The notes: a model not told the origin generated them from the sequence alone. Counted from the stretch's first letter, positions 5,261-24,514 are shown. The stretch: 64,000 nucleotides of DNA from Roseivirga sp. E12 (GCF_017592825.1 NZ_JAGFMD010000001.1:434001-498000); one strand, 5' to 3'. Made by a program: numbers and translations.

Positions 5261-6235
5261 CTAGATTACCACAACGTTTTTGCCGATCACTTTACGGTCC
5301 ATTAGATCTCGAATCGCCTGTCCGCCTTCTTCAAGTGGATATTCTCTATAGATGTTCTGCTTTAACTGTCCTGATTTGATCCATCCAAGAATCTGCTGAA
5401 AGTTCTCAAAACTCTCTTTAGGCTGTTTTTGAGCGAAGGCTCCCCAAAAAACTCCTACGATAGAAGCTCCCTTTAACAATGGAAGATTCAGTCTAATGGA
5501 TGCGGGTACACCTGCAGCAAATCCTACCACCAAATATCTACCACCCCATGCCAATGATCTGACAGCAGGCTCTGAGTATTTGTCGCCAACTGGGTCATAA
5601 ATAACATCAGCTCCTTTTCCCTTGGTTAATTCCTTGATGCGTGTCTTCAAGTCTTCTGTGGTGTAGTTGATTGTTTCATCAGCTCCAGATGCCTCGCAAA
5701 GATTGAGCTTTTCATCGGAGCTCGCCACTGCAATGACATGTGCACCCATGAGTTTTCCGATTTGAACTGCGGCTAGACCAACACCACCTGCTGCTCCTAA
5801 TACCACCAATGTTTCACCAGCTTGGAGAGTACCTCGTTGTTTTAAGGCATGTAATGAAGTGCCACAAGTGTACATTGTAATGGCACCTGTTACAAAATCC
5901 ATCCCGTCAGGCATTGGTAGGCATTTGTGCGCATCGGCCAAGACAAATTCAGCAAAACCGCCCCAGATTGTCAAAGCAAATACTTTGTCTCCCGGTTTCA
6001 CATGTTTGACTTCCGAACCGATGGCTTCGACAATACCAGACACTTCTCCACCAGGGGCGAAGGGAAGTTCCGGTTTGAATTGATACTTGTCTTGAATGAT
6101 CAGTGTATCAGGAAAGTTGACGCCACAGGCTTTTACCTTAATCAATACTTGAGAAGGGCCTGGTTTAGGTGTCTCAGTATCAGACATAGTCAATGACTCG
6201 GGTTCACCAAATTGATGGCAGAGTAGGGCTTTCAC
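5261..6235 (-). CDS. NADPH:quinone oxidoreductase family protein, 324 aa
   Basis: This is a medium-chain dehydrogenase/reductase of the zinc-free quinone oxidoreductase branch. The N-terminal GroES-like domain covers residues 1-125 and includes GVNFPDTLI and the PGGEVSGIVEAIG motif. The Rossmann domain follows, with the nucleotide-binding loop GAAGGVGLAAVQIGK near residues 147-161 and the family pattern GKGADVIYDPVG. It probably reduces quinones or enoyl compounds with NADPH in the cytoplasm. The start is GTG and overlaps the TAG stop of the upstream SIMPL gene by one base (TAGTG), which suggests translational coupling. No zinc ligands of the alcohol dehydrogenase type are visible. Confidence 0.9.
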   Translation of the reverse strand: MKALLCHQFGEPESLTMSDTETPKPGPSQVLIKVKACGVNFPDTLIIQDKYQFKPELPFAPGGEVSGIVEAIGSEVKHVKPGDKVFALTIWGGFAEFVLADAHKCLPMPDGMDFVTGAITMYTCGTSLHALKQRGTLQAGETLVVLGAAGGVGLAAVQIGKLMGAHVIAVASSDEKLNLCEASGADETINYTTEDLKTRIKELTKGKGADVIYDPVGDKYSEPAVRSLAWGGRYLVVGFAAGVPASIRLNLPLLKGASIVGVFWGAFAQKQPKESFENFQQILGWIKSGQLKQNIYREYPLEEGGQAIRDLMDRKVIGKNVVVI

Positions 6236-6957
6236 TAGTTTTCTTTTCGATAAATGAAATATGAGATTCGGATACTCTTCTGAAGTGTCTGTGGTGCTAG
6301 GTTGAAATTAGCAAAGCTTCTATCTTCAGACGATTTAAGGGCCATAGACTCCATTCTAGCCAAGGCGTTTACCTGGAAAGGTTCACCTTGTGTATAGTCA
6401 ACACTTCTTACTGCACCGACTTCGAAACTACCGGCCTTGGCGAGCATTTGAGCTTGTCGCTTTGCGTTGTCAAATGCCGCATTGATTAATGCTTCTTCAG
6501 ATTGGGCTTTTGCTTTATCGCTGAAATAGCTGCTCGTATTTACATTAACAGGTAGGTTCGTGTATGCAATGACATTTAAGATTTTTATAATCTGCTCTTT
6601 ATCAGCGCTGACTTTTAATTGCAATGTCTGGCTGGCTGTATAAGTTGTCTTTGTTTCAGGTCTATATCGGTTGTCATTGATATTCGTATAGAAACCGATC
6701 GTTTTGAGACTGTCCTTACTGATTTTGGCTTTTTTGTTAAGGCACTTAATCATATAGTTGGTCATATGCTCAAGACTATCAACAGACTGACGTTGTGCCT
6801 CTGTTGTGACCGTAAACCTCAGGTCAAATTGGAACAGGTCAGGAATCGTTTCGATTTGTGCTGAACCCTGAACTTTTAAAGTATTGGCTTCTTGCTCTTG
6901 CGCAAAGAGTCCAGCGGACATCAGTGCCATCAATGCAATTGTATAAATCCTTTTCAT
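6235..6957 (-). CDS. SIMPL (DUF541) domain exported protein, 240 aa
   Basis: A signal peptide (residues 1-19, ending LFAQ) is followed by a SIMPL/DUF541 domain over residues 25-235. The family pattern of LKVQGSAQIETIPDLFQFDLRF at the start, an alternating region around residues 80-130 and the duplicated alpha/beta layout are recognisable. SIMPL proteins are periplasmic or outer-membrane-associated oligomers; some are linked to oxidative stress or outer membrane integrity, but the molecular role is not settled. It heads a two-gene operon with the quinone oxidoreductase, sharing one base with it. Confidence 0.85.
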   Translation of the reverse strand: MKRIYTIALMALMSAGLFAQEQEANTLKVQGSAQIETIPDLFQFDLRFTVTTEAQRQSVDSLEHMTNYMIKCLNKKAKISKDSLKTIGFYTNINDNRYRPETKTTYTASQTLQLKVSADKEQIIKILNVIAYTNLPVNVNTSSYFSDKAKAQSEEALINAAFDNAKRQAQMLAKAGSFEVGAVRSVDYTQGEPFQVNALARMESMALKSSEDRSFANFNLAPQTLQKSIRISYFIYRKEN

Positions 6958-7004: not shown

Positions 7005-7613
7005 TTAGCGCTTATACTTGTCATTAAGCCCTTCGCCTCGACTTATCATAGGGGTGATTTTTTCCAGTCGACTTAGTTTTGTTTCTGCTCGTTTGGCATT
7101 CGCAATGTACTCCGCAAAATCTCTTTTATTGCTTAGCGAAAAGGCTTCAAAGCTCTCTTTCAATCCTTCAATGCTATCTAAAGCTTCTTGTAGTTCTTCA
7201 GGAATTACTAATGGCTTGGAAGCCTTTTTTTGTGGTTTGAATTCTTTTCCAGCCAAGTGGTTATCAATCGCTTCTTGAACGTAAAGTCTGATCAAGTCTT
7301 CATTGTCTTCAATTTCTTCCAAGGACATAAATCTCCATTGACGCATTCCGTGTGTTTTCCCTTCCTGTGCATTGATTAGCTTTTGCGAAGCGTCCTCAAG
7401 AAACACGCCTTGAAAAAACCAAATACCTGCATATGCCTTGAAGCCTCCAAGGCCCACAACGTTTTTCCCATTGATCGTATAAACCGGGAAGGCCCATTTG
7501 ACAGTTTCTTCAAACGGAAAGGACATGATGATGCTCCTTAAGAAGCGCATTGATTTAGGGTGAGGGGAGTCGTTCGAAAAGTATTCCTCAATGTTTTTCT
7601 TCTCCATAGTCAA
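7005..7613 (-). CDS. YdeI/OmdA-like DUF1801 protein, 202 aa
   Basis: The N-terminal half is a DUF1801 (YdhG-like) domain: residues 20-120 contain SFPFEETVKWAFPVYTINGKNVVGLGGFKAYAGIWFF in broken form, typical of that fold. The C-terminal half (about 140-200) matches the OmdA/YdeI tail, with LQEALDSIEGLKESFEAFSLSNKRDFAEYI and the conserved AKRAETKLSRLEK. Such proteins are small, cytoplasmic and of uncertain function; some are linked to peptide or stress resistance. The start may be the ATG at 7613 or the one two codons later (MEKK). It stands between the SIMPL operon and the deiminase-like gene on the same strand, with about 50-base gaps. Confidence 0.8.
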   Translation of the reverse strand: MTMEKKNIEEYFSNDSPHPKSMRFLRSIIMSFPFEETVKWAFPVYTINGKNVVGLGGFKAYAGIWFFQGVFLEDASQKLINAQEGKTHGMRQWRFMSLEEIEDNEDLIRLYVQEAIDNHLAGKEFKPQKKASKPLVIPEELQEALDSIEGLKESFEAFSLSNKRDFAEYIANAKRAETKLSRLEKITPMISRGEGLNDKYKR

Positions 7614-7666
7614 TTAAAAAATGATCACAGGAAGTTCTTAAAATCCAATGCTTAATGCAAGCCCTA

Positions 7667-8728
7667 TTAACTTCTAGCGGCTAAAATTAGCTTCTCTGCA
7701 TTTGCTCCAGTCAATTGCCATGTCAAGCACCTAACACTGCCACCCATGGCACAAACTCCTTCCGCATTTACTTCTATTATGTTTTTTGAAGTGTTCTGTC
7801 TCATAAGCCTGAGTGCTTCTTGTTCATGATCCATTCCGAAAACAGGCACATATATATTATTGAAAGTGATGGTTGCATTGAGGTTGATGCCACAGGCGGA
7901 TTCGAAACCGTCCCACTGTCCCGGAGGGTTGGTGGTATAGTCAACAGGTACTTCGATAATGGCTATACCCGGGAATGCACGGTTAAGCTCATCCAAAACT
8001 CGTGTCCTGAAAGCAGGGTCATTGCTGTAGTCGTTAATAAGTAGCGTATTGTCATCTACCCAGCTAACCATCCCATCTGAATGTGCCAGTACTTCTTCGT
8101 CTGGTTCAATGATGGCAACTTCATTTGCTCCAAGCAATTCTTTGAGTTGGGATACGCCTTGAGCATGTGTGAGATTATTGTCTTCTAAGAAGCGGGTTGT
8201 CGTGATTACCCTTCCTTTATAATTGTCTACAATATTACCACCATCGATCAAGAGACTTGTATTGGCGCGTTGTATGTTTAGCCTGTTGGCCAATTCGCTA
8301 AAGCTACCTTGGACTTCTCTGCTCTGTTGACGGGTCATAGAAGCCCATGTATAGGTAAACTGTACTGGGGAGAGGGGGTTGATTGTACTGAAATCTCTCA
8401 TCCAGATATCATAGACATCTGCTGTTATTAATATATCTTCTGGAAGATGTCCTTCATAGAAACGCTTTGTTTCACTATCCACGATTACAACAATATTATC
8501 ATTGTTCATGACTTGCTTAGCATAAGCTATCTGAAAATCAACAATCAATTGAAAGGCGGGTGAATAATAAGAATCGCTAACTGACGGTGCGGATAATACC
8601 AAGAGCATTCTGTCATTGCTCAATGTATTAGTAAGCTGATCTTGTGAATCGTTCTCTGGCGCAGGAGAGTTGCTGCAGGCTGCTATAGTAAGCGCTAATG
8701 AAATTAGTATCACTGATGTTTTTCTCAT
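7667..8728 (-). CDS. Agmatine deiminase/peptidylarginine deiminase-like lipoprotein, 353 aa
   Basis: A lipoprotein signal with lipobox (IAAC, Cys 18) precedes a pentein fold of the bacterial peptidylarginine/agmatine deiminase family. Visible active-site segments are IWMRDFSTINP (near residue 108), LLIDGGNIVDNYKG (near 160), LAHSDGMVSW (His, near 217) and MGGSVRCLTWQ near residue 333 with the probable nucleophilic cysteine. These match the Asp, His, Asp, Cys layout of guanidine-modifying enzymes. Unlike cytoplasmic agmatine deiminases, it should be anchored in an outer or periplasmic membrane, like the exported Porphyromonas enzyme. An element shared with the fecR promoter lies 17 bases upstream, which hints at control by an ECF sigma factor. 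The substrate (agmatine, arginine or peptidyl-arginine) is not determined. Confidence 0.85.
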   Translation of the reverse strand: MRKTSVILISLALTIAACSNSPAPENDSQDQLTNTLSNDRMLLVLSAPSVSDSYYSPAFQLIVDFQIAYAKQVMNNDNIVVIVDSETKRFYEGHLPEDILITADVYDIWMRDFSTINPLSPVQFTYTWASMTRQQSREVQGSFSELANRLNIQRANTSLLIDGGNIVDNYKGRVITTTRFLEDNNLTHAQGVSQLKELLGANEVAIIEPDEEVLAHSDGMVSWVDDNTLLINDYSNDPAFRTRVLDELNRAFPGIAIIEVPVDYTTNPPGQWDGFESACGINLNATITFNNIYVPVFGMDHEQEALRLMRQNTSKNIIEVNAEGVCAMGGSVRCLTWQLTGANAEKLILAARS

Positions 8729-8745
8729 GGTTTTGGTCTTTGATA

Positions 8746-8776
8746 TGAATACTGTTGAGACACTTTTACCCTACCT
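8746..8776 (-). promoter_or_regulatory. Candidate ECF-sigma promoter of the deiminase gene
   Basis: Reading the minus strand, AGGTAGGGTAAAA, then 11 bases, then GTATTCA stands 17 bases before the ATG at 8728. The same two blocks with the same 11-base spacing stand 18 bases before fecR (23963-23993). Block spacing resembles the -35/-10 layout of ECF sigma promoters. Confidence 0.55.
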
Positions 8777-8827
8777 TGTTTTTTTGAAATGGGGTTTTTA
8801 TGCGGGTAGGAGTGTTTTTTAATGATT

Positions 8828-14312: not shown

Positions 14313-14380
14313 ATTCCTGTATTAACACATATAGATTTGCTACTGGTAAGCAATCAATTATAATCACTAATTTGTATGCA

Positions 14381-15472
14381 ATGAATGAGAAACTAAGGAT
14401 AAAGTGGTCGAAGATGAGAGTAATCTCAGTGGCTTGGCTATCTATATCAATAGTCTTTGCCCTTGTAGACCACTGGACAGTCAATTCGTCTTATTCATTG
14501 GGAACTACTGCATTGTACTCCTTCGGAGGGAACCTGACCTTTCATATTATATCAACGCTCATTGCGATTGCTATAGGTGCCTCATTTCTAGTGTTCTATC
14601 TCCATGACCGCTTAATCGATCGGCCGTACTGGCACGGAATATTGACAATAGTCATGGTTTATATTTCCGTAGTGAGTGTTATAACCTTTGTTATGGGTTT
14701 CATACTCGTGCCTTTAAATGCTGGGATCCCCATTGGGCAAGAGGGTTTTATTGATGCTTATAGGGCCTATTTGCTTGACTCAATACATCTAAGAAACATA
14801 ATGCTATGGTCCATAGTTGTTGGTTCTACTCAATTGCTCCTTCAGATCAATGATAAGTTCGGACATGGTCTTCTGGGTAAACTAATCTTAGGAAAATATC
14901 ATAAAGCACGAGAAGAAGATCGTGTATTTATGTTTCTCGATTTAAAATCCTCAACGGCAACGGCAGAAAAGCTTGGTAATCTAAAGTATCATAAGTTTCT
15001 GAGAGACTACTTTTCAGACATGACCAATGCCATAATTTTCAATAAGGGCAAGATCTATCAGTATGTGGGAGATGAGGTAGTAATTACCTGGACAGTAGAG
15101 GATGGCATTTCTGATCATCACTGCCTGAAGTGTTACTTTGATATCAAGCGATCGATCCAAGAAAAGAAGGCCGTATACGAAGAGCGGTATGGATTTATAC
15201 CTGAATTTAAGGCCGGGATACATACTGGAAAAGTTATTGCAGGTGAGATCGGCATTGTCAAAAGAGATATTACTTATTCTGGCGATGTATTGAACACGGC
15301 CGCTAGAATTCAGGCTAAATGTAATGAGCTAAAGGTGTCGCTATTAGCTTCGGAAGATGTATTTGATCTATTCTCTGAGAAAATACCTTTTGAAAAAAGA
15401 AGTATTGGAGAGATCGAATTGAGGGGTAAGTCCCTAAAAGTTCCTCTGAGTACATTCTCATTGATGAATTAA
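14381..15472 (+). CDS. Membrane-bound class III adenylate/guanylate cyclase, 363 aa
   Basis: Four membrane segments occupy roughly residues 10-150. A class III cyclase catalytic domain follows over about 180-355. It begins FMFLDLKSSTATAEKLG with the first metal-binding aspartate, then YQYVGDEVVITW with the second, and carries GIHTGKVIAGEIG and DVLNTAARIQ, where the asparagine and arginine for catalysis lie. It should make cAMP or cGMP from ATP or GTP at the cytoplasmic membrane. ATG 14381 was preferred over an in-frame TTG three codons earlier. Downstream and after a 93-base gap begins the exported redox locus on the same strand; whether they are co-transcribed is not clear. Confidence 0.88.
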   Translation: MNEKLRIKWSKMRVISVAWLSISIVFALVDHWTVNSSYSLGTTALYSFGGNLTFHIISTLIAIAIGASFLVFYLHDRLIDRPYWHGILTIVMVYISVVSVITFVMGFILVPLNAGIPIGQEGFIDAYRAYLLDSIHLRNIMLWSIVVGSTQLLLQINDKFGHGLLGKLILGKYHKAREEDRVFMFLDLKSSTATAEKLGNLKYHKFLRDYFSDMTNAIIFNKGKIYQYVGDEVVITWTVEDGISDHHCLKCYFDIKRSIQEKKAVYEERYGFIPEFKAGIHTGKVIAGEIGIVKRDITYSGDVLNTAARIQAKCNELKVSLLASEDVFDLFSEKIPFEKRSIGEIELRGKSLKVPLSTFSLMN

Positions 15473-15565: not shown

Positions 15566-16003
15566 ATGAAAAATTTACTTCTGATACTCTCATTTACACT
15601 GCTACCTTTCAACGATTCAGTTGATTGGACTTTCGACTTCGAAGAAGCAAAAGCTCAGGCAGCAACATCACAAAAAACCATATTGGTTGTTTTTTCAGGA
15701 TCTGACTGGTGCAAGCCATGTATACAACTGCACAAGGAACTATTTGAATCAGATAAGTTTATCGTTTATGCGAAGGAAAACCTGGTCCTTGTAAAGGCCG
15801 ATTTTCCTTACAGAAAGAAAAATAAGCTTTCTAAAGAGCAGACACTACACAATGAGGCTCTAGCAGCCAAGTACAATCCAAATGGAGAGTTTCCATTAGC
15901 TGTATTTACTGATGCCTCAGGTAAAGCATTAGGCACTTTTGGTTTCGATAAAACCAAGACTCCTCAAGATTACATTCTTCAATTCAACCAATTTTTAAAA
16001 TGA
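15566..16003 (+). CDS. Exported thioredoxin-fold protein (WCKPC), 145 aa
   Basis: A short signal sequence (residues 1-18) is followed by a thioredoxin-like domain with the redox motif SGSDWCKPCIQLHKELF near residues 47-63. A cis-proline position near GEFPLAVFTDASGK (about 112-125) and the trailing LGTFGFDKTKTP fit the thioredoxin_7/DUF255-like group common in Bacteroidota. It probably reduces or isomerises disulfides of exported proteins. Its stop codon overlaps the ApbE start as ATGA, and it leads the operon of ApbE, DUF4266 and DUF3570. Such a thiol oxidoreductase may service the Cys-rich DUF4266 lipoprotein, which is an inference. Confidence 0.85.
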   Translation: MKNLLLILSFTLLPFNDSVDWTFDFEEAKAQAATSQKTILVVFSGSDWCKPCIQLHKELFESDKFIVYAKENLVLVKADFPYRKKNKLSKEQTLHNEALAAKYNPNGEFPLAVFTDASGKALGTFGFDKTKTPQDYILQFNQFLK

Positions 16004-16989
16004 GACAGTTTTTGACCGTGAGTCTTCTGATAAGCTGTTGTGCCGCCTTGGCACAACAGCCTCAGAAGCACCACAAAGTACTGGAGTTAATGGGCTCTAG
16101 GTTTGAGATCAGTGCATTTCATACAGATGCGCAAAGGGCCTGGTATGGCATCAATGCGGGTATTACAGAAATAAGCCGCATAGAAAAGCTCATCTCTTCA
16201 TGGGATCCAAATTCTCAGACCTCTTTGATCAATAAGAATGCAGGTATTAAACCTGTAAAGGTTGATAAGGAATTGTATCAATTAATTCAAAGAGCGATTC
16301 AGATATCGGCTATTACAGATGGTGCATTCGATATATCATATGCTTCCATGGATCGGATTTGGAAATTCGATGGATCAATGGAAGCCATGCCATCAGAGGA
16401 AATAGTCGCTCAGGCTAAGTCTAAAATTGGCTTTAGAAACATCCAACTCAACCCAACAAAGCAAGAAGTTTATTTAAAGGTAAAAGGAATGAAAATAGGC
16501 TTTGGGGCTATAGGCAAAGGATATGCCGCTCAAAAAGCTAAAGAAAAAATGTCTGCCTTAGGCATCAAAAGTGGGGTAGTGAATGCAGCGGGAGATTTGA
16601 TTGCCTGGGGTAAAGACGTTGATGGAGAAACATTCAAAGTAGGAATTGCTGACCCAAGACAAAAGGGGAAAGTCTTATCGTGGCTTGCGGTAAACAATAC
16701 ATCTGTTGTCACATCAGGAGACTATGAGCGATTCGTCATGTTTGGTGGAGTTCGCTATGCTCATATCATCGACCCAAGAACGGGTTACCCAACCACAGGA
16801 ATAAAGAGTGTCACCATAGTAAGTGCAAACCCGGAGTTAGCGGATGCACTCTCGACAAGTGTGTTTGTGCTCGGAGTAGAAAAAGGAATTTATCTCATCA
16901 ATCAATTAGAGGGAGTCGAATGCTTAATCATCACAGATGGGGATGAATTAGTGACATCAGATCGATTGGAGATCAGCAACAAATCATAA
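16000..16989 (+). CDS. apbE: FAD:protein FMN transferase ApbE, 329 aa
   Basis: A signal peptide (residues 1-18, ending ALAQ) precedes a complete ApbE domain. Recognisable parts are MGSRFEISAF at the start, ISSWDPNSQTSLINKNAG near residue 65, AFDISYASMDRIW near 107, GAIGKGYAAQKAKE near 170, VNAAGDLIAWG near 190, and HIIDPRTGYPTTGIKSVTIV with ADALSTSVFVLG near 250-290, which hold the metal and FAD contacts. The enzyme transfers FMN from FAD to a threonine or serine of an exported protein. No canonical S-G-A-T-type acceptor motif is evident in the neighbouring genes. It overlaps the thioredoxin gene by four bases and is followed by DUF4266. Confidence 0.95.
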   Translation: MRQFLTVSLLISCCAALAQQPQKHHKVLELMGSRFEISAFHTDAQRAWYGINAGITEISRIEKLISSWDPNSQTSLINKNAGIKPVKVDKELYQLIQRAIQISAITDGAFDISYASMDRIWKFDGSMEAMPSEEIVAQAKSKIGFRNIQLNPTKQEVYLKVKGMKIGFGAIGKGYAAQKAKEKMSALGIKSGVVNAAGDLIAWGKDVDGETFKVGIADPRQKGKVLSWLAVNNTSVVTSGDYERFVMFGGVRYAHIIDPRTGYPTTGIKSVTIVSANPELADALSTSVFVLGVEKGIYLINQLEGVECLIITDGDELVTSDRLEISNKS

Positions 16990-17017
16990 CGACTAAGATC
17001 ACATTAAGGATAAAATC

Positions 17018-17242
17018 ATGACTAAGAAAAGACTACTTATTGGCGTATTGGCAGGAGCTGGCTTCATGCTTTCACAATCTTGCACAAGCGTCAAAGGGTA
17101 TCAAAAAATGTATCTAAACGATCAAGAGATGTCTTTGAGCGCTCGGTCGATAGACTATTTCTGTATCAATTTTCAATCTTATCGAGAAGGTGCCTCTGGC
17201 GCTAACGGTGGTAAAGTAGGTGGGGGATGCGGATGCAACTAA
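17018..17242 (+). CDS. DUF4266 lipoprotein, 74 aa
   Basis: This very small lipoprotein has its lipobox at SQSCTS (Cys 22), followed by the DUF4266 signature: VKGYQKMYLNDQEM, then a stretch ending in GASGANGGKVGGGCGCN with a terminal Gly/Cys cluster. DUF4266 genes recur between apbE and DUF3570 genes in Bacteroidota and other phyla, which points to a common exported redox function, though no biochemical role is established. The C-terminal CGC pair might bind a metal or form a disulfide. The last 16 bases overlap the start of the DUF3570 gene in another frame, so the two are probably translationally coupled. Confidence 0.9.
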   Translation: MTKKRLLIGVLAGAGFMLSQSCTSVKGYQKMYLNDQEMSLSARSIDYFCINFQSYREGASGANGGKVGGGCGCN

Positions 17243-18438
17243 GGAAAGTAATAGTTCTCTCTCTTCTGCTTGCATGGACAGGCGAACTGTGGGCTCAAAG
17301 TGAAAAGTCAAAAGCAGACAGCTCTGCATTTGAGATAAAGAAACTGGCAGAGTCAGACATCAGTCTTCTCTTTAGTTACTATTCGCAAGATGGTAACAAC
17401 TCACCAGTTACGGGTGGCTTAGGAACCGAGCAGTTAACTGATTTGACATCCAAGATCATTGTCAATCTTGTGCTGGACGAAAAGAACACAGTTACGATAG
17501 ATGGAGGTTTTGACATGTATTCTTCGGCTTCAACTGATAATATAGATGACTTCGTGTCTTCTGCATCCAGCAAGGATACGCGTGTTCATGCAAACTTCGG
17601 ATATAGCCGCAAAGCAAAGAACGATTTGACTTGGGGATTTAAGGTGGGTGGTTCTACAGAGTATGATTATAATTCCATACAACTATCCGGTTATGTCTCT
17701 AAGACCTCACTTGATGGTAATCGAACCTTCGGGCTTTCTGCTCAGGCTTTCATAGATCGTTGGGAGATTATATATCCGAGGGAGCTCAGAGATAGACAGT
17801 GGGTAACTACGGATCAAAGAAGGTCCTACAGTATATCAGCAAGCTTCTCTACTGTTATCAATAGACGTATGCAGGCAAGTATATCTGCTGATGTAGTAAC
17901 ACAATCTGGGCTGCTAAGTACGCCATTCCATAGAGTGTATTTCACTAACCAGACTGAAGCCAGGGTGGAGAGGCTGCCGTTTAATCGATTGAAAATCCCT
18001 GTAGGTGTTCGTTTAAACTATTACGCGACTGATTACTTGCTGCTAAGAGCTTACTATCGTTTCTATTGGGATGATTGGGGAATTATAGGACATACGCTTG
18101 CCTTAGAAGCACCAATCAAGTTGAATCGCTTCTTTTCGATTTATCCTTTCTACAGGTACCACACCCAATCCGAGGCGAACTATTTCGCATCCTTTGGGCA
18201 GCACACCGGTGAATTTCAGTACTACACATCAGACTATGACTTAAGTAACCTCTCTAGTCATCAATATGGTATAGGCGTGAGGTATTCTCCAGCGGATGGA
18301 ATTGGGGCCATGAGACTACCAGGTAGAAACAATAGACTTCTTACGCTCAAAGAGATCAATTTCAAATATGGGCATTATACAAGAACGCCAAGCTTGACTG
18401 CAGATATTTTCAGTATTGGGATGAACTTTACATTCTAA
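17227..18438 (+). CDS. DUF3570 outer-membrane beta-barrel-like protein, 403 aa
   Basis: A signal peptide (residues 1-19, ending LWAQ) is followed by a DUF3570 domain across the whole chain. Near the N-terminus stands the conserved segment YSQDGNNSPVTGGLGTEQL. The rest is made of alternating strands with aromatic ends and terminates in SIGMNFTF, the phenylalanine-terminated C-terminus of outer membrane barrels. The family is a regular partner of ApbE and DUF4266, so it may be a porin-like conduit or scaffold for a flavin-carrying redox protein; this is inferred from gene order. The start overlaps the DUF4266 gene by 16 bases. Confidence 0.9.
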   Translation: MRMQLRKVIVLSLLLAWTGELWAQSEKSKADSSAFEIKKLAESDISLLFSYYSQDGNNSPVTGGLGTEQLTDLTSKIIVNLVLDEKNTVTIDGGFDMYSSASTDNIDDFVSSASSKDTRVHANFGYSRKAKNDLTWGFKVGGSTEYDYNSIQLSGYVSKTSLDGNRTFGLSAQAFIDRWEIIYPRELRDRQWVTTDQRRSYSISASFSTVINRRMQASISADVVTQSGLLSTPFHRVYFTNQTEARVERLPFNRLKIPVGVRLNYYATDYLLLRAYYRFYWDDWGIIGHTLALEAPIKLNRFFSIYPFYRYHTQSEANYFASFGQHTGEFQYYTSDYDLSNLSSHQYGIGVRYSPADGIGAMRLPGRNNRLLTLKEINFKYGHYTRTPSLTADIFSIGMNFTF

Positions 18439-18497
18439 TAAAATAATATATGTATGTATGAATAAATGTTAATATGTAATAATGATTATAAAATAAT

Positions 18498-18923
18498 ATG
18501 AAACGTAAAGACTTTTTAAAAAAACTAGGAGGGGGAGCTGCATTTGCACTCACCGCCACTTGCCTCGGAGGTTGTGCTGTTGAGAACATCAACCCTGATC
18601 AACCGGGTACATCTACTGCAATCGACTTTACACTAGATCTTAATGCAGCAGTGAACTCAAATCTATCAAATAATGGTGGATATGTAATAGTCAATAATCA
18701 GGTTGTAGTGGCTAGGGCCACAACTGGGGAATATGTAGCTGCAACCAGGACATGTTCACATGACCCAAGAAAGGAAGTGATTCTTAGGAATGGAGAGTGG
18801 TATTGTACTGCTCATGGTGCCCGCTTTAGATTGGATGGCGCGGGATTGAATGGAAATGGAAGAAATGGCCTAACCATTTACAATACGGAGTTGAATGGCA
18901 ATATGCTAAGGGTTTTTGCTTAA
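18498..18923 (+). CDS. Exported Rieske [2Fe-2S] protein, 141 aa
   Basis: The N-terminus, MKRKDFLKKLGGGAAFALTATCLGGCAVE, combines a Tat-like basic start with a lipobox, and Cys 26 is the likely lipidated residue. A Rieske fold follows, with cluster ligands in TCSHDPRKE (C-x-H, near residue 93) and WYCTAHGARF (C-x-x-H, near 111). The protein is shorter than bc1-type Rieske subunits and resembles stand-alone periplasmic electron carriers of Bacteroidota. It probably passes electrons outside the cytoplasm. It lies 59 AT-rich bases after the DUF3570 gene on the same strand, so it likely belongs to the same redox locus. Confidence 0.9.
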   Translation: MKRKDFLKKLGGGAAFALTATCLGGCAVENINPDQPGTSTAIDFTLDLNAAVNSNLSNNGGYVIVNNQVVVARATTGEYVAATRTCSHDPRKEVILRNGEWYCTAHGARFRLDGAGLNGNGRNGLTIYNTELNGNMLRVFA

Positions 18924-18928
18924 ACGAT

Positions 18929-19114
18929 ATGAAAATGAAAAGACTAACTATGCTCATTACGCTATTGGCCATCATTGGCTTTACTAGCTGTGAACAAATT
19001 AACCCACAGGCAGACGGAACTGCCAGTGGATCGGATGTTCAAGTGACACAAGGAGACACCATGGGTGGCGATGATAACGAGAACGATGATAACGATGATG
19101 ACAACGATGATTAA
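18929..19114 (+). CDS. Small Asp-rich lipoprotein, 61 aa
   Basis: The signal sequence (residues 1-20) ends at a lipobox, FTSC. The mature part, only about 40 residues, is hydrophilic and ends in a run made almost wholly of Asp and Asn (about residues 48-61). No family is recognised. It begins five bases after the Rieske stop, so co-expression is likely. The acidic tail resembles the linkers of the next protein and a loop of the nearby TonB receptor. Calcium or other metal binding is possible but unproven. Confidence 0.7.
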   Translation: MKMKRLTMLITLLAIIGFTSCEQINPQADGTASGSDVQVTQGDTMGGDDNENDDNDDDNDD

Positions 19115-19211
19115 CTGAAAAGTCCTCACCTAAGAGTACCAATGAAGTAGAGGGTTTGGTCACCAGCCACGCCCAAGTGAATGATTGATTTTAAAGTATT
19201 CTAAACTAATA

Positions 19212-20261
19212 ATGATGAAAATGATTAAAAAATTCAGAACAATGATGGGGCTAATGACCCTGGCAATCATGACAGTTGTAATGTCATGTGACAATCAAAA
19301 TACGGATACAGTTCCTACTGAAGTCCAGGCTAATGCAGCTAGTAAGTCTCGATTAAGGTTTGTCGATTCTAAGGACTATGATACTTCTGGCATGGATAGC
19401 TGGCAAGAAGTAACGACTATTCCAGACGCTATTACACAATATGTAACGGACAATCACGCTGGATTGACAATTGAGGAAGCATGGTTAACCACAACCGGTG
19501 AGTATATAATTCTTCTTGATGATGATACAGTGCTTGTTTTTAATGCTTCAGAGCAGTTTATCATCTCGTTTAATCTAGAGGCGTATGCCGGTAGTTTTGA
19601 AGATGATTTTGAAGAAGTAGATTCTGCATCACTTCCACAGCCTATACTCGATTACCTAATCGCCAATCACAATGGAGTCGGAATAGATATCGCTGGTCTT
19701 AATGCTGAAGACGGTGAGTATGTGGTTGTACTAGAATCTGGAATAGTGCTTGTTTTCGACACTAATGGAACACTTTTAGATGAGTTTGATGAAGATGACT
19801 ACGAGGACGATTACGAGGATGATGACTACGAGGACGTAGAGATTGATTCTTTAGCACAGTCTATTAAGGACTATATAGCGACTAATTATGCTGGCGCTGT
19901 TATTGAATTTGCCGTGTTTGATACGGAAGATGAGGAATACTTGATCTTCTTAGATAGTGGGATTGTAGTGATCTTCGATAAGGATGGCAATTTCATTGAA
20001 GAAGATGAGGATGATGGTGACTATGAAGACGACTGTGAAGAAGTTGATCTTGCTGACCTACCAACTGCTATTTCGGATTACGTGACCGCTAATTATGCTG
20101 GAGAGCAAATTGAAGAGGCGTGGTATGATGCTGAGGAGATGCAGTATTATATAGAGTTGTCAAACGATGTTGTGCTAATCTTTGCTGAGGATGGGTCTTT
20201 TGTCAGTGAGTACACGGAAGACGATGACGATGGAGAAGATGATGATGACGATGGCGAGTAG
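19212..20261 (+). CDS. Lipoprotein with four PepSY-like repeats and acidic linkers, 349 aa
   Basis: After a lipobox at VVMSC come four repeats of about 60-70 residues, each of the form 'LP-x-x-I-x-DY(I/V)-x-x-N(Y/H)-x-G-x-x-I-E-x-A' followed by a beta hairpin with 'G-E-Y-x-(I/V)-x-L-(D/E)-x-G-x-V-(L/V)-(V/I)-F-(D)'. This matches the PepSY-like (BLIP-like) fold seen in exported Bacteroidota proteins. Repeats are joined by acidic linkers such as DEDDYEDDYEDDDYED. I set the start at ATG 19212; an in-frame TTG at 19185 would add nine residues without family support. It ends the plus-strand redox locus and is followed by a strong terminator. Its function is unknown; inhibitor, chaperone or metal-binding roles are all possible. 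Confidence 0.8.
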   Translation: MMKMIKKFRTMMGLMTLAIMTVVMSCDNQNTDTVPTEVQANAASKSRLRFVDSKDYDTSGMDSWQEVTTIPDAITQYVTDNHAGLTIEEAWLTTTGEYIILLDDDTVLVFNASEQFIISFNLEAYAGSFEDDFEEVDSASLPQPILDYLIANHNGVGIDIAGLNAEDGEYVVVLESGIVLVFDTNGTLLDEFDEDDYEDDYEDDDYEDVEIDSLAQSIKDYIATNYAGAVIEFAVFDTEDEEYLIFLDSGIVVIFDKDGNFIEEDEDDGDYEDDCEEVDLADLPTAISDYVTANYAGEQIEEAWYDAEEMQYYIELSNDVVLIFAEDGSFVSEYTEDDDDGEDDDDDGE

Positions 20262-20285: not shown

Positions 20286-20319
20286 AAAGGCCATCTCGAA
20301 TTATCGAGATGGCCTTTTT
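20286..20319. terminator. Bidirectional intrinsic terminator, 14-bp stem
   Basis: AAAGGCCATCTCGA, loop ATTA, TCGAGATGGCCTTT forms a perfect 14-bp stem, followed by T residues on the plus strand and, because the stem starts with A residues, also on the minus strand. It separates the PepSY-like gene from the convergent TonB receptor gene. Confidence 0.93.
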
Positions 20320-20340: not shown

Positions 20341-23055
20341 CTAGAACCAAATTCTGAAGCTGATATTTGGGGTAAACCCAAGGAAAAACTTCGTGCGTTC
20401 AAGGACTGAGATCTGATTATTGCGATCAAAATCAACTGAATAACTTCTGTTAAAAGTGTTTTTGCGGTTGAGCAAATTGATAATACTGAGTCCAACTTCA
20501 CCTTTTATACGACTATTATCGCTTCCAAACTTGTGCCAAACAGAGAGATCAATTCTATGGTAGTTGGGGAGGCGCTGGGTATTAGGGGAGACGTATTCAA
20601 GGTCGTATATAATGTCATCACTTCCTGTGTCAGGATCGTCATCATCATCGTCATCATCGTCAGAATCAGTAGTAGTAGTGAGGGTTGGAGTTGGAGTGAA
20701 TGGCAAGCCTGTTTTAAAGATGTAGCCAAGAGAAAATTCCCAATTTTTCCAGTTGTAAGTGGTTGAAAGTCTTAGTTGATGTTTAATGTTAAAAGAAGAT
20801 GGAAATGGATTATCAAAGATAGAATTAAGCTCAACTTTCGAGTCTTGGAAGTTGTAACTCATCCACGCACGTAAGTACTTCCAACGTTTTCTGATGGTTA
20901 AATCAATACCTTGAATAAGCTCGAAGCCAGGTTCAAAAGCCTGGTCACTTTCAAAGCCAAAGCCCTGATTTATGGCCAAAATACCATCGATGTCTTTGAG
21001 GTAAAGGTCTAAGTCTATCAGCCAAGATTTTTCATTGTAGATAAAGCCCAAAGTGGCTTGGCGATTGAATATGATGGGTACTGTTGCTATTTCGTCCTCA
21101 TCTTCATTAAGATCGGAAAGCAACCAATGCCTTTCAACGGCATTGGACAAAGTAAAATCAGATTCTTGAATGGTACTCAAGTATTGATGATAAAGTCCTA
21201 CAGATGATTTAAGAATCAAATTGGGCTTCAAACTGTAGTTGAGCTTGGCTTGTGGGCTAAAATAGGCTTCTCCTAAGGTGCCAACGTGCGTAACCCGACC
21301 ACTGACGATTGCTTCCAATTTATCATTGGGTCGGTGATTTAAGTCAAAGAAAAGCCCATTGACAAGCCCATTTGAATTAATGTCCGTTACAGCATCTTCT
21401 TCAAAGAATTCTGTTTCCGAGATTACATTGTCAATATTAAAGTGATTGAGTTGGTAGCCATATTCAAGAATGTTTGAATCATTGATTCTCCAAGAATTTG
21501 AAAGTCTCAATTCTAAGTTCCTGATGGCATTACTTCTGGTAGACTCGTCATTATCATCTTCTGATACATCGTCTCGAAGGTTGCTAAAAGCGTATGACAT
21601 GTCATAGTTAGAGTAACTTAGACTTGACTTCAAAGAGTTTTTGTCATTGATGCGGTAGGAATAACCAAAATTACCACCATAGCTTTTGATTTCATGGTTT
21701 TGTTGAATGTTGACATCTTCTAAATCATCATCTTCTTGGTAGCTAAACCTGCTAGAGCTGTTCACAAAGCTTGCGGTGAACAAAGAGCGACTATTGGGCT
21801 GATAATCCCATTTGAGGTTGATGTCGTAAAAACTTAGATTATTCTCGAAATCGGCTACATTATCAGTCACTTGATAGAGGCCTTGCCCATCTCTGGTTTC
21901 ACTACCAAAGAGCTTTGTGGAGTACGAGTTATAGGTCCATGTGGGCAGTGCATCGTTATAAGACCTTCTTAAGGCGACCATAAATGAACCTAAGTCCCTT
22001 TTAAACGGAAGTTTCGCATAGACATCGGCATGCGTCATATTTACACTTGCTTCAGCTCTAGTTTCTCCATCAATCTGATTCCTGGAGGCAATGGAAATAA
22101 GGCCAGCAGTAGCTCCGCCATATCTGACTGGAATGTAATTCTTATAGATATCCAAAGAACCTGTTGAGGATGGTATAAAGCTCGATACATTGCCAAAATA
22201 GTGGGCCGAATGATATACAGGAACATCATTCCAATAGAGCAGAGTATTATCAGGCGCACTACCTCTTATGTTGATACCGGAAGCAGATTCATCATTGGAA
22301 GTGAGTCCTGATATTATTTGTGCCGATAGAAGCACATCTCTCTCAGACAAACCAGGCAATATTTCCATTTGCTGAGGCAGTATTCTGAAACTGTTGGCTT
22401 TTGGATCAGAGCCAATTCCAACATTAATGTATTCCTTAACTTCAAAGTCAGTTAGTTCAATTGGGGTGGGCTTCAGGTTTATTACAAATCGATCGTTTGT
22501 ATTTATACTTTCAACATTTACCGTTGTGGTTTGAAAACCCAGGTATGACACTTCCAGTACTGCAGATTTTGGATTAGGTAAGACCAGCTTTATGGCCCCA
22601 TCCATACCAGCAACTTGACCTAGAGAGGTGCCCAGTAATCTAAAAGTAGCATAGGGCAGAGGTCCGCCAGTTTCATCGTCTATTACCTGAATGTCTAAGT
22701 ACTTAGATTCAGGTCTCTTTACGACATAGAATTCATCTTTGATCTGTTCTAGTTCTAAGCTGGTTTGGCCAATGATAAGCCCCAAAAGACTGGAAAGACC
22801 GGTGTAGTTACCAGAAATGCTTATTCGTTCCTCCCGTACCTCATCTGGGTTGTAAGAAAAGTAAATTGAAAATTGCTTTTCAAGATCGTTGAGTACTTGC
22901 TTTAAAGAACGGTTAGATGCTGTGTATTGACCATCTGACTGTGCTTGAACAGTTAGGGGTAGGATAAGTAAACAAAGGAGTAGAGCTATGCGCTTACTGG
23001 CCTTTGATACCAGAAAGTACCAGTTTTTGATTTGTTGAGTCGTATTGATATTCAA
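20341..23055 (-). CDS. TonB-dependent receptor with STN signalling domain, 904 aa
   Basis: A signal sequence (about residues 20-39, ending VQAQ) is followed by an STN domain (40-115: SLKQVLNDLEKQFSIYFSYNPDEV), a carboxypeptidase-like regulatory beta-sandwich (120-205), a plug domain (about 215-340, with INIRGSAPDNTLLYWNDVPVY) and a 22-strand barrel ending in SFRIWF. The STN domain signals to FecR and the sigma factor encoded just upstream. A periplasm-exterior loop near residue 800 carries nine consecutive Asp residues. The ligand is unknown. The first 62 bases overlap fecR in another frame; no later Met exists before the signal sequence, so this start is favoured. Confidence 0.93.
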   Translation of the reverse strand: MNINTTQQIKNWYFLVSKASKRIALLLCLLILPLTVQAQSDGQYTASNRSLKQVLNDLEKQFSIYFSYNPDEVREERISISGNYTGLSSLLGLIIGQTSLELEQIKDEFYVVKRPESKYLDIQVIDDETGGPLPYATFRLLGTSLGQVAGMDGAIKLVLPNPKSAVLEVSYLGFQTTTVNVESINTNDRFVINLKPTPIELTDFEVKEYINVGIGSDPKANSFRILPQQMEILPGLSERDVLLSAQIISGLTSNDESASGINIRGSAPDNTLLYWNDVPVYHSAHYFGNVSSFIPSSTGSLDIYKNYIPVRYGGATAGLISIASRNQIDGETRAEASVNMTHADVYAKLPFKRDLGSFMVALRRSYNDALPTWTYNSYSTKLFGSETRDGQGLYQVTDNVADFENNLSFYDINLKWDYQPNSRSLFTASFVNSSSRFSYQEDDDLEDVNIQQNHEIKSYGGNFGYSYRINDKNSLKSSLSYSNYDMSYAFSNLRDDVSEDDNDESTRSNAIRNLELRLSNSWRINDSNILEYGYQLNHFNIDNVISETEFFEEDAVTDINSNGLVNGLFFDLNHRPNDKLEAIVSGRVTHVGTLGEAYFSPQAKLNYSLKPNLILKSSVGLYHQYLSTIQESDFTLSNAVERHWLLSDLNEDEDEIATVPIIFNRQATLGFIYNEKSWLIDLDLYLKDIDGILAINQGFGFESDQAFEPGFELIQGIDLTIRKRWKYLRAWMSYNFQDSKVELNSIFDNPFPSSFNIKHQLRLSTTYNWKNWEFSLGYIFKTGLPFTPTPTLTTTTDSDDDDDDDDDPDTGSDDIIYDLEYVSPNTQRLPNYHRIDLSVWHKFGSDNSRIKGEVGLSIINLLNRKNTFNRSYSVDFDRNNQISVLERTKFFLGFTPNISFRIWF

Positions 23056-23944
23056 TATTGTCAGCTCTTAGAACGAGTTTAATTGCCGCGATAACATCAT
23101 CATTAGGGAAGTTACCTGTAAACGGAATAATATCAATTTCTGGTGTTGATTTTATGTCTATCCCAAAAACATTACTCAGTTCATTCAGAGCTTCCTTTAG
23201 AGTTACGTTTTCAAGTTCGGTTACCCCACTTGTAATCCATACAGGCTTACCGTCATTCAGTTGCTTTTTCCACGAACGTTTAAACGAACCATTATCAATT
23301 CTGACGCCATCGCCCGGTATAAGGTCCTGGGAGAACTCCTGTTCACTAACGTTTACTTTACCAGTATAACATACAACATCCAGTAGGTTGTTTCTATTCC
23401 AAACATTGAATGATGTACCTAAAACCTTAACGGTACCTTGATCTGTTTCAACTTCGAAGTTTATGCCTTTTGTAACCTCGAAGAATGCTTCTCCCGTAAG
23501 GAGCAAGTGTCTATTCTCACCAAACTCGTCAGGGTCAAAGCGTAACTTGGAATTAGCATTCAGTGTAACGATCGATTGGTCTGGTAATGTGATTGTCTCA
23601 ATTTGACCCGCCAGAGTTTCGTAAACAGTATAGTTAGGCAGTGTCAGATAGTATATCAAGGAAATTCCTATTACCACAACTGCAGCAGCGGCATATTTAA
23701 AGAATCCACCAAGGCGTATGACTTTAGTTTCTGTTGGTGCCTCTTGCGAGCGTCTGTCCTTTAGCTTTGCTAATTCAGTCTCTACATCATATTGTGGCAT
23801 AGCCAACTTATCCGTGGACTCGACAATCTTCGAAAAGGCAATACCTTCCTCAGAACTCTCGAATTCACGTTGTTCCTCTGGTGACAATTCACCACTTAGC
23901 CATCTGGCTAGAAAGTCTTCGCTATCGTTTATTTTATCGGCCAT
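22994..23944 (-). CDS. fecR: FecR-family anti-sigma/sensor protein, 316 aa
   Basis: The N-terminal cytoplasmic part (residues 1-80, with FLARWLSGELSPEEQREF) should bind the sigma factor. A single membrane segment lies near 83-102, followed by a periplasmic FecR domain (about 108-205, with TLPDQSIVTLNANSKLRF and EAFFEVTKG) and a C-terminal STN-like module (about 240-310) that contacts the receptor. It is the usual middle partner of a sigma/FecR/TonB-receptor cell-surface signalling system. It overlaps the receptor gene by 62 bases, and a candidate ECF promoter lies in the 54-base gap between it and the sigma gene. Confidence 0.93.
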   Translation of the reverse strand: MADKINDSEDFLARWLSGELSPEEQREFESSEEGIAFSKIVESTDKLAMPQYDVETELAKLKDRRSQEAPTETKVIRLGGFFKYAAAAVVVIGISLIYYLTLPNYTVYETLAGQIETITLPDQSIVTLNANSKLRFDPDEFGENRHLLLTGEAFFEVTKGINFEVETDQGTVKVLGTSFNVWNRNNLLDVVCYTGKVNVSEQEFSQDLIPGDGVRIDNGSFKRSWKKQLNDGKPVWITSGVTELENVTLKEALNELSNVFGIDIKSTPEIDIIPFTGNFPNDDVIAAIKLVLRADNIEYQYDSTNQKLVLSGIKGQ

Positions 23945-23962
23945 TTATACCAACTATGCTCT

Positions 23963-23993
23963 TGAATACGTTCTGGTCTTTTTTACCCTACCT
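23963..23993 (-). promoter_or_regulatory. Candidate ECF-sigma promoter of fecR
   Basis: On the minus strand AGGTAGGGTAAAA, 11 bases, GTATTCA precede the fecR ATG by 18 bases. The same arrangement precedes the deiminase-like gene at 8728. If real, it would allow fecR and the receptor to be induced by the adjacent sigma factor. Confidence 0.55.
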
Positions 23994-23998
23994 CTGTC

Positions 23999-24514
23999 TT
24001 AAATATTTTTATGAATTTCTCTAATTTTCACTAAAGCCTTGTGCATTCTCTTCTCTACGGCCTTTACGCTTACCTCCAGCATCTCGGCTATTTCAGAATA
24101 TGTCTTCTTCTCAATTCTATTTAAAAGAAAAACCTCCCGCTGCCCTTCAGATAGTCCATTGATCGCATTCTGAATTTGCACATCAAATTCAGAAAACTCC
24201 ATCTGAAATTGTGGGTCTTCGTTGTGAGTAGTTTTCGAAATGAACTGGATGTGTTTTTGTTTGACCTTGTCCTTATCCACCAACTTCAACATTTGGTTTT
24301 GAGCAACTCTGTAGAGATAGGCCTTTGCCATATCTGGCATCACTTTTTCACAGTTCTTCCATAAGGTGAGGAAAGCCTCTTGCACCATATCAGCAGCTCT
24401 TTCGGCATCTCTGTATTTATAGATGAGAAAGTTTCGAATGGTAGGGGCTAAGGTTCGAAATAGCGATTCATAGAAGGTATTATCGCAACTATTCTGTAAA
24501 CCCGAAGTGTCCAA
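23999..24514 (-). CDS. ECF (FecI-like) RNA polymerase sigma factor, 171 aa
   Basis: Region 2 is visible in FLIYKYRDAERAADMVQEAF and LTLWKNCEK, with AYLYRVAQNQML after it, and region 4 in GLSEGQREVFLLNRIEKKTY and SEIAEMLEVSVKAVEKRMHKA, a helix-turn-helix for the -35 element. It should direct transcription of the fecR/receptor genes once FecR relays a signal. The start is TTG at 24514; no ATG occurs before the conserved region. Oddly, the stop codon of the upstream GH13 gene is in the same frame, only three codons before this TTG, so translation may depend on re-initiation after the GH13 gene. Confidence 0.92.
   Translation of the reverse strand: MDTSGLQNSCDNTFYESLFRTLAPTIRNFLIYKYRDAERAADMVQEAFLTLWKNCEKVMPDMAKAYLYRVAQNQMLKLVDKDKVKQKHIQFISKTTHNEDPQFQMEFSEFDVQIQNAINGLSEGQREVFLLNRIEKKTYSEIAEMLEVSVKAVEKRMHKALVKIREIHKNI

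Follow-up and report, generated by a model that had tools for sequence, protein, structure and literature searches.

A Rieske lipoprotein gene attached to the ApbE-DUF4266-DUF3570 flavinylation cluster in Roseivirga and other bacterial families

The window analyzed here is a 64,000-nucleotide stretch of DNA on contig NZ_JAGFMD010000001.1 (434001-498000) of the marine bacterium Roseivirga sp. E12 (Bacteroidota; GCF_017592825.1), whose genome of 4.70 Mb consists of 35 contigs. The window holds a seven-gene locus in which a Rieske lipoprotein gene is attached to a known flavinylation cluster, which comprises the genes for a thioredoxin-like protein, ApbE, DUF4266, and DUF3570; a small Asp-rich lipoprotein gene and a PepSY_like (PF11396) gene follow. 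The attachment of the Rieske gene is new and is found across several bacterial families. On balance, we lean towards the view that the locus encodes an electron-transfer chain of the cell envelope whose end point is a flavinylated outer-membrane barrel, a Rieske-equipped variant of the published system.

Linkage of the Rieske gene to the flavinylation cluster

A survey of genomes at the genus, family, order, and class levels, together with genomes of named species, yielded 130 distinct DUF4266 loci. In 20 of them, a Rieske gene on the same strand is linked directly to the cluster, in two gene orders and with gaps mostly of 4-76 bp. Eight of these genes follow DUF3570, all in the Roseivirga group; the other 12 immediately precede the thioredoxin-like gene and come from families f11, f13, f60, and f73, Crocinitomicaceae, and Saprospiraceae. 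One more Rieske gene is located 5.7 kb off in the Saprospiraceae locus L179. Within Roseivirga, a Rieske gene adjoins DUF4266 in eight of the nine DUF4266 genomes; none is present at the second DUF4266 copy of G001 or at the DUF4266 gene of G005. An even sample of the class gave linkage in 10 of 45 DUF4266 genomes (chance of ~1e-17 under a simple model, related genomes not being independent). The first-pass annotation of the window had staked its reading on Rieske and PepSY-like genes being linked to the cluster in relatives, and such linkage was found for both.

The top ranking of linked Rieske proteins in the class search is partly circular because the profile was built from them; a tree of the 20 linked, the one distant, and 20 unlinked sequences was used instead. 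Linked and unlinked sequences are intermixed in this tree. The upstream-linked sequences need six label changes, at least five of which are forced by well-supported branches, and the unlinked sequences need five. The linked Rieske proteins are polyphyletic; therefore, the association has been gained, moved, or lost several times. It is very improbable that the Rieske, small lipoprotein, and PepSY_like genes are hitchhikers functionally unconnected to the core. Most loci do contain the core without these three genes, but the tight same-strand linkage in several families, the two gene orders, and the polyphyly of the Rieske proteins speak for a connection. So does the Flavobacteriaceae-like genome G429, where the Rieske gene still adjoins ApbE although DUF3570 is missing from the whole genome.

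The window protein carries the ligands C86-x-H88 and C103-x2-H106, and the 14 residues between the two pairs are slightly fewer than the usual 15-17. Of 21 homologues, 19 retain all of the CxH...CxxH ligands. The best sequence match in the PDB found by a profile search was PetC3 (5cxm, E 3.8e-11), and the structural model, with a predicted local distance difference test (pLDDT) score of 78, aligns with Rieske ferredoxins over 94 residues at Z scores of up to 11.5. The ligands and predicted fold are those of a Rieske protein, with a putative [2Fe-2S] cluster. It resembles cyanobacterial PetC3 in being a single small stand-alone Rieske domain, whereas its lipoprotein-like nature, its place within a flavinylation operon, and the 14-residue spacing set it apart. 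TatC is present in the genome.

Other settings of Rieske genes were also observed. Locus L250 has a Rieske-ApbE pair (7319-8801) without thioredoxin-like, DUF4266, or DUF3570 neighbours, and DUF3570 is missing from its genome. In L258, L259, L263, L264, and L267, a Rieske gene stands beside a DUF5777-type barrel gene and a YceI-like gene, sometimes with a PSCyt1 cytochrome.

Organization of the locus

The seven plus-strand genes in tight order that the first-pass annotation had described were all found at 15566-20261, six of them with a Pfam match (Table 1). Signal peptides or lipoboxes of all seven proteins, which were read by eye without a trained predictor, agreed with its calls. The thioredoxin-like and ApbE genes overlap by 4 bp and the DUF4266 and DUF3570 genes by 16 bp; the remaining gaps are 28 bp (ApbE-DUF4266), 59 bp (DUF3570-Rieske), 5 bp (Rieske-small lipoprotein), and ~100 bp (small lipoprotein-PepSY_like). 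For PepSY_like, an ATG start within 19212-19221 is more likely than TTG 19185. The strong closing terminator was borne out: its 14-bp stem (~20286-20317) has a folding energy of -28.3 kcal/mol (z -7.7), and zero shuffles were equally good. A simple pattern scan overlooked it.

The operon gene order is kept across the genus among the Roseivirga relatives compared. The gene before the thioredoxin-like gene varies among these relatives; therefore, the unit starts at the thioredoxin-like gene. In the window, a membrane-type class III nucleotide cyclase gene (14372-15472, plus strand) lies directly before the operon, and it is absent there in most relatives.

Table 1. Features of the locus and of its convergent neighbours, numbered from the first nucleotide of the window.
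Feature	Position	Strand	Basis or remark
Thioredoxin-like exported protein, 145 amino acids, WCKPC, operon gene 1	15566..16003	+	Pfam Thioredoxin_7 1.5e-12
ApbE, flavin adenine dinucleotide:protein flavin mononucleotide (FMN) transferase, exported	16000..16989	+	Pfam ApbE 6.8e-83
DUF4266 small lipoprotein, C-terminal GGGCGCN, third Cys (YFC)	17018..17242	+	Pfam 1e-16, alignment
DUF3570, 403 amino acids, predicted 16-strand outer-membrane beta-barrel	17227..18438	+	Pfam 6.7e-28
Rieske lipoprotein, putative [2Fe-2S], 141 amino acids	18498..18923	+	Pfam Rieske 3e-5, 24.3 bits vs cut-off 20.3
Small Asp-rich lipoprotein, 61 amino acids	18929..19114	+	Open reading frame call, homologues in relatives
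PepSY_like (PF11396) acidic repeat lipoprotein, ~4 repeats	19215..20261	+	Pfam 1.7e-19
Intrinsic terminator, end of operon	20286..20319	+	Folding energy
TonB-dependent receptor with Asp-run loop	20341-23055	-	Convergent with operon
FecR	22994-23944	-	Convergent neighbour
Extracytoplasmic function (ECF) sigma factor	23999-24514	-	Convergent neighbour

Relation to the published flavinylation system

Judged by their sequences, the first four genes are the published DsbD-type flavinylation cluster, gene for gene. In some bacteria, DsbD feeds this flavinylation system of thioredoxin-like, ApbE, DUF4266, and DUF3570 proteins (Meheust et al. 2021, eLife, PMC8238504). That study found 227 DsbD-linked clusters with DUF3570, the majority of which also have thioredoxin-like and DUF4266 genes, and 316 further clusters without linked DsbD (PMC8238504). 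Flavinylation of DUF3570 from Chlorobium luteolum was shown by ultraviolet gel imaging and a double serine mutant (PMC8238504). The first-pass annotation had regarded ApbE-DUF4266-DUF3570 as a trio without an assigned function and the thioredoxin-like protein as an addition to it; the function is published and the thioredoxin-like protein belongs to the core. The Roseivirga locus shares with the DsbD-type cluster the four core genes, the C-terminal CxC of DUF4266, and DUF3570 as the putative flavinylation substrate. It differs in having no linked DsbD and in adding the Rieske protein, the small Asp-rich lipoprotein, and the PF11396 protein. The word Rieske is absent from Meheust et al. 2021 (PMC8238504), and a literature search for Rieske together with ApbE or flavinylation found no report among the papers covered.

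The core order is the same in 108 complete loci. DsbD was found, unlinked to the cluster, in all 19 genus members, and the DsbD gene of Roseivirga sp. E12 is located on another contig (G000:C33); therefore, the locus belongs to the DsbD-unlinked type.

The thioredoxin-like protein has a below-cut-off match to the disulfide reductase DsbH, and WCxxC is present in nearly all of its 114 homologues. DUF4266 has the C-terminal CxC, and GGGCGCN is invariant in the alignment. DUF4266 was also considered as a flavinylation substrate on account of its motif-like SGAN, which is SGAS or SGAT in two homologues, yet nearly all have Asn and the candidate was rejected. Its third Cys (YFC) is found in all eight Roseivirga-group loci with a downstream Rieske gene and not in L089 or L091, a pattern that is confounded by ancestry. 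Saprospiraceae DUF4266 proteins have an extra Cys at another place (NDPCM).

Thioredoxin-like and CxC proteins are components of disulfide chemistry, and the potentials of Rieske centres usually lie in the mid to high range. Both properties would suit an inward electron flow, in which the system serves envelope thiol oxidation or repair, or oxidant detoxification, with the flavin and Rieske centres as sinks towards the respiratory chain. However, the published partner DsbD is an electron exporter (PMC8238504), and the VIT1 and TonB links described below suggest uptake; inward flow is therefore unlikely.

Predicted structure of DUF3570 and its putative flavin sites

An AlphaFold2 model of DUF3570 (56 sequences, pLDDT 88.6) has 16 strands. 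Foldseek matched it to OmpG, FadL, OprD, and AlgE, all of which are outer-membrane barrels, and VIA-align gave BamA (Z 20.9), PgaA (19.7), BcsC (18.9), and CymA (18.1) with the same strand order. A signal peptide, a closed barrel with an even number of strands, and a C-terminal Phe are all predicted, as in outer-membrane barrels. A sequence search for a DUF3570 relative of solved structure found none. The prediction for DUF3570 is thus an outer-membrane beta-barrel of 16 strands. Meheust et al. 2021 do not call it a barrel; they found the Chlorobium protein in the pellet when expressed in Escherichia coli (PMC8238504), which fits a barrel and equally mere insolubility. A later flavinylation paper mentions outer-membrane substrates in passing, with no DUF3570 modelled (PMC11334425).

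Two flavinylation motifs are at the expected places, SSAS102 and SSAS114, with Ser in place of the Gly of [S/T]GA[S/T]. The putative FMN sites read D96-x-x-S-S-A-S102 (family form D96-x-x-[T/S]-S-A-S102) and S-S-A-S114. S102 is kept in all 117 DUF3570 homologues and S114 in 114 of 117. In the model, both serines are located in the hairpin of strands 3 and 4, on the side opposite both termini. The termini of outer-membrane barrels usually face the periplasm; therefore, the hairpin and both putative FMN serines are predicted to be on the cell exterior. The far-side loops are more conserved than the terminus-side turns (1.56 vs 2.31 bits), and greater conservation of the outer-side loops is unusual for outer-membrane proteins.

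Because the predicted fold is of the porin and transport barrel type, DUF3570 might instead be a porin or transporter with structural or sensory covalent flavins, which the remaining genes merely mature. We consider this distinctly unlikely; the presence of two adjacent flavin sites that hardly vary and the repeated recruitment of Rieske or haem genes suggest electron flow.

A small outer-membrane-type barrel gene is also found just upstream of ApbE or DUF4266 in L081, L107, L124, L125, L127, L128, L132, and L151, in most cases with the thioredoxin-like gene on one side and ApbE on the other.

A haem protein in the position of the Rieske protein

Seven loci have, directly ahead of the thioredoxin-like gene, a gene for a lipoprotein that contains two CxxCH haem motifs and for which Pfam gives weak cytochrome matches only. 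In L179, this slot (5488-6453) encodes a protein that may be a natural fusion, with a weak PepSY_like stretch alongside two PSCyt1 cytochrome domains. Judged from gene position, a two-haem lipoprotein appears to be able to take the place of the Rieske protein, and such an exchange would be expected of an electron carrier. Strict mutual exclusion of the two was considered and dropped (p 0.24).

Acidic lipoproteins, neighbouring genes, and iron

The PepSY_like protein of the window scores 70.4 bits against PF11396 (cut-off 28.3), and three repeats pass individually. It matches PF11396 only, its acidic repeats follow one lipoprotein signal, 27% of its residues are Asp or Glu, and it is the sole PF11396 gene found in the genome. 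PF11396 is a soluble family with the BLIP fold (PMC2954215). A membrane PepSY electron carrier (PF03929/PF16357, three transmembrane helices) was ruled out by the match to PF11396 only. The PepSY-like flavinylation systems (PF03929/PF16357 with DUF2271; PMC8238504) resemble the locus in name and proximity to ApbE only; their proteins are three-helix membrane proteins, whereas the window protein belongs to a soluble, BLIP-like family, and the locus lacks DUF2271. The exported redox locus of the first-pass annotation stands as an exported redox cluster in which ApbE, the Rieske protein, and the thioredoxin-like protein belong together, but a redox role of the PF11396 protein is unsupported, apart from the one weak cytochrome fusion in L179. 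Four loci of Saprospiraceae, namely L156, L158 (weakly), L166, and L179, also have a linked PF11396-like gene.

The 61-residue Asp-rich lipoprotein has no Pfam match and occurs in Roseivirga only, with homologues in L084-L086 and L088. In place of a PF11396-like gene, six Saprospiraceae loci have the gene for an unrelated lipoprotein rich in Asp and Glu (up to 50% acidic), accompanied by FecR and TonB receptor genes and, in five of the six, by an ECF sigma factor gene. These acidic proteins may, speculatively, bind metal cations; for the Asp-rich proteins, the first-pass annotation had suggested a metal-binding role, which is plausible.

The ECF sigma/FecR/TonB triad that converges on the operon (20341..24514) is a possible regulatory or uptake partner. 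Such a triad is found in Saprospiraceae loci L155, L162, L169, L187, and L190, mostly in one run with the core, and in L171 without the sigma gene. In the Roseivirga group, it lies beside the operon in the window, L079, L085, and L088, on differing sides; L084 has FecR and the receptor beside the operon, and the locus end cuts off the remainder. No other receptor of the genome matches a linked receptor from Saprospiraceae as well as the window receptor does (2.3e-61, against 1.0e-43 for the runner-up). The triad was demoted from conserved partner to lead because the window FecR is only the second-best match in the genome to a linked FecR from Saprospiraceae; the genome has eight FecR sets. The VIT1 ferrous-iron transporter family is present in 10 surveyed loci, on the same strand in eight, and directly before the Rieske gene in L097, L099, and L102; Meheust et al. 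counted 25 clusters with VIT1 (PMC8238504). The acidic lipoproteins, the triad, and VIT1 together hint at a metal, most likely iron.

A chain that serves iron uptake through the reduction of ferric iron, either in the periplasm or on the cell surface, and that is controlled by the adjacent TonB/FecR/ECF sigma genes, would account for the VIT1 genes, the triads in Saprospiraceae and in five Roseivirga loci, and the receptor match. It is a possibility that we take seriously but think rather unlikely, as VIT1 and the triad are both absent from most loci, and FecR sets are common, with the window FecR only second best.

Proposed electron-transfer chain

In the chain that we favour, both SSAS serines of DUF3570 would receive FMN through the action of ApbE, by analogy with the Chlorobium homologue. 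Electrons from DsbD or another inner-membrane donor would cross the periplasm by way of the thioredoxin-like protein, DUF4266 (a CxC lipoprotein), and the Rieske lipoprotein to these flavins, which the model places in one outer-side hairpin of the barrel. From there, electrons would pass to a cell-surface acceptor; ferric iron is, on faint hints, the most likely acceptor or beneficiary. The acidic lipoproteins might be surface accessories.

Several points weigh against this chain. No inner-membrane donor is linked at the locus, ~85% of the surveyed loci have no linked Rieske gene, and the finding that Rieske and haem genes never occur in one run is not significant alone. Site 1 of Bacteroidota DUF3570 is [S/T]SAS, not [S/T]GAS, and a Gly-to-Ala change cut flavinylation approximately by half in another substrate (PMC12052999). 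The exposure of the FMN groups depends on the AlphaFold topology: S114 is in a low-confidence stretch (pLDDT <50 at 112-114), and the hairpin might be held inward by the barrel. ApbE is expected in the periplasm; therefore, flavin attachment would have to precede barrel insertion.

With considerable doubt, we further propose that DUF3570 is a flavin-based electron outlet, with two adjacent covalent FMNs at its outer mouth, no multihaem cytochromes, and a Rieske or two-haem carrier on the periplasmic side. The likeness to the MtrCAB-type porin-cytochrome conduits, in which an outer-membrane barrel also moves electrons outward, is an analogy only; in contrast to MtrCAB, there is no multihaem cytochrome and no haem plug, and the covalent flavins would be on the barrel itself. 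The recurring Rieske or haem partners name likely electron donors, and flavins on the outer face would make the destination of the electrons a question of surface accessibility. If this proposal is true, electrons would cross the outer membrane without cytochromes in many Bacteroidota.

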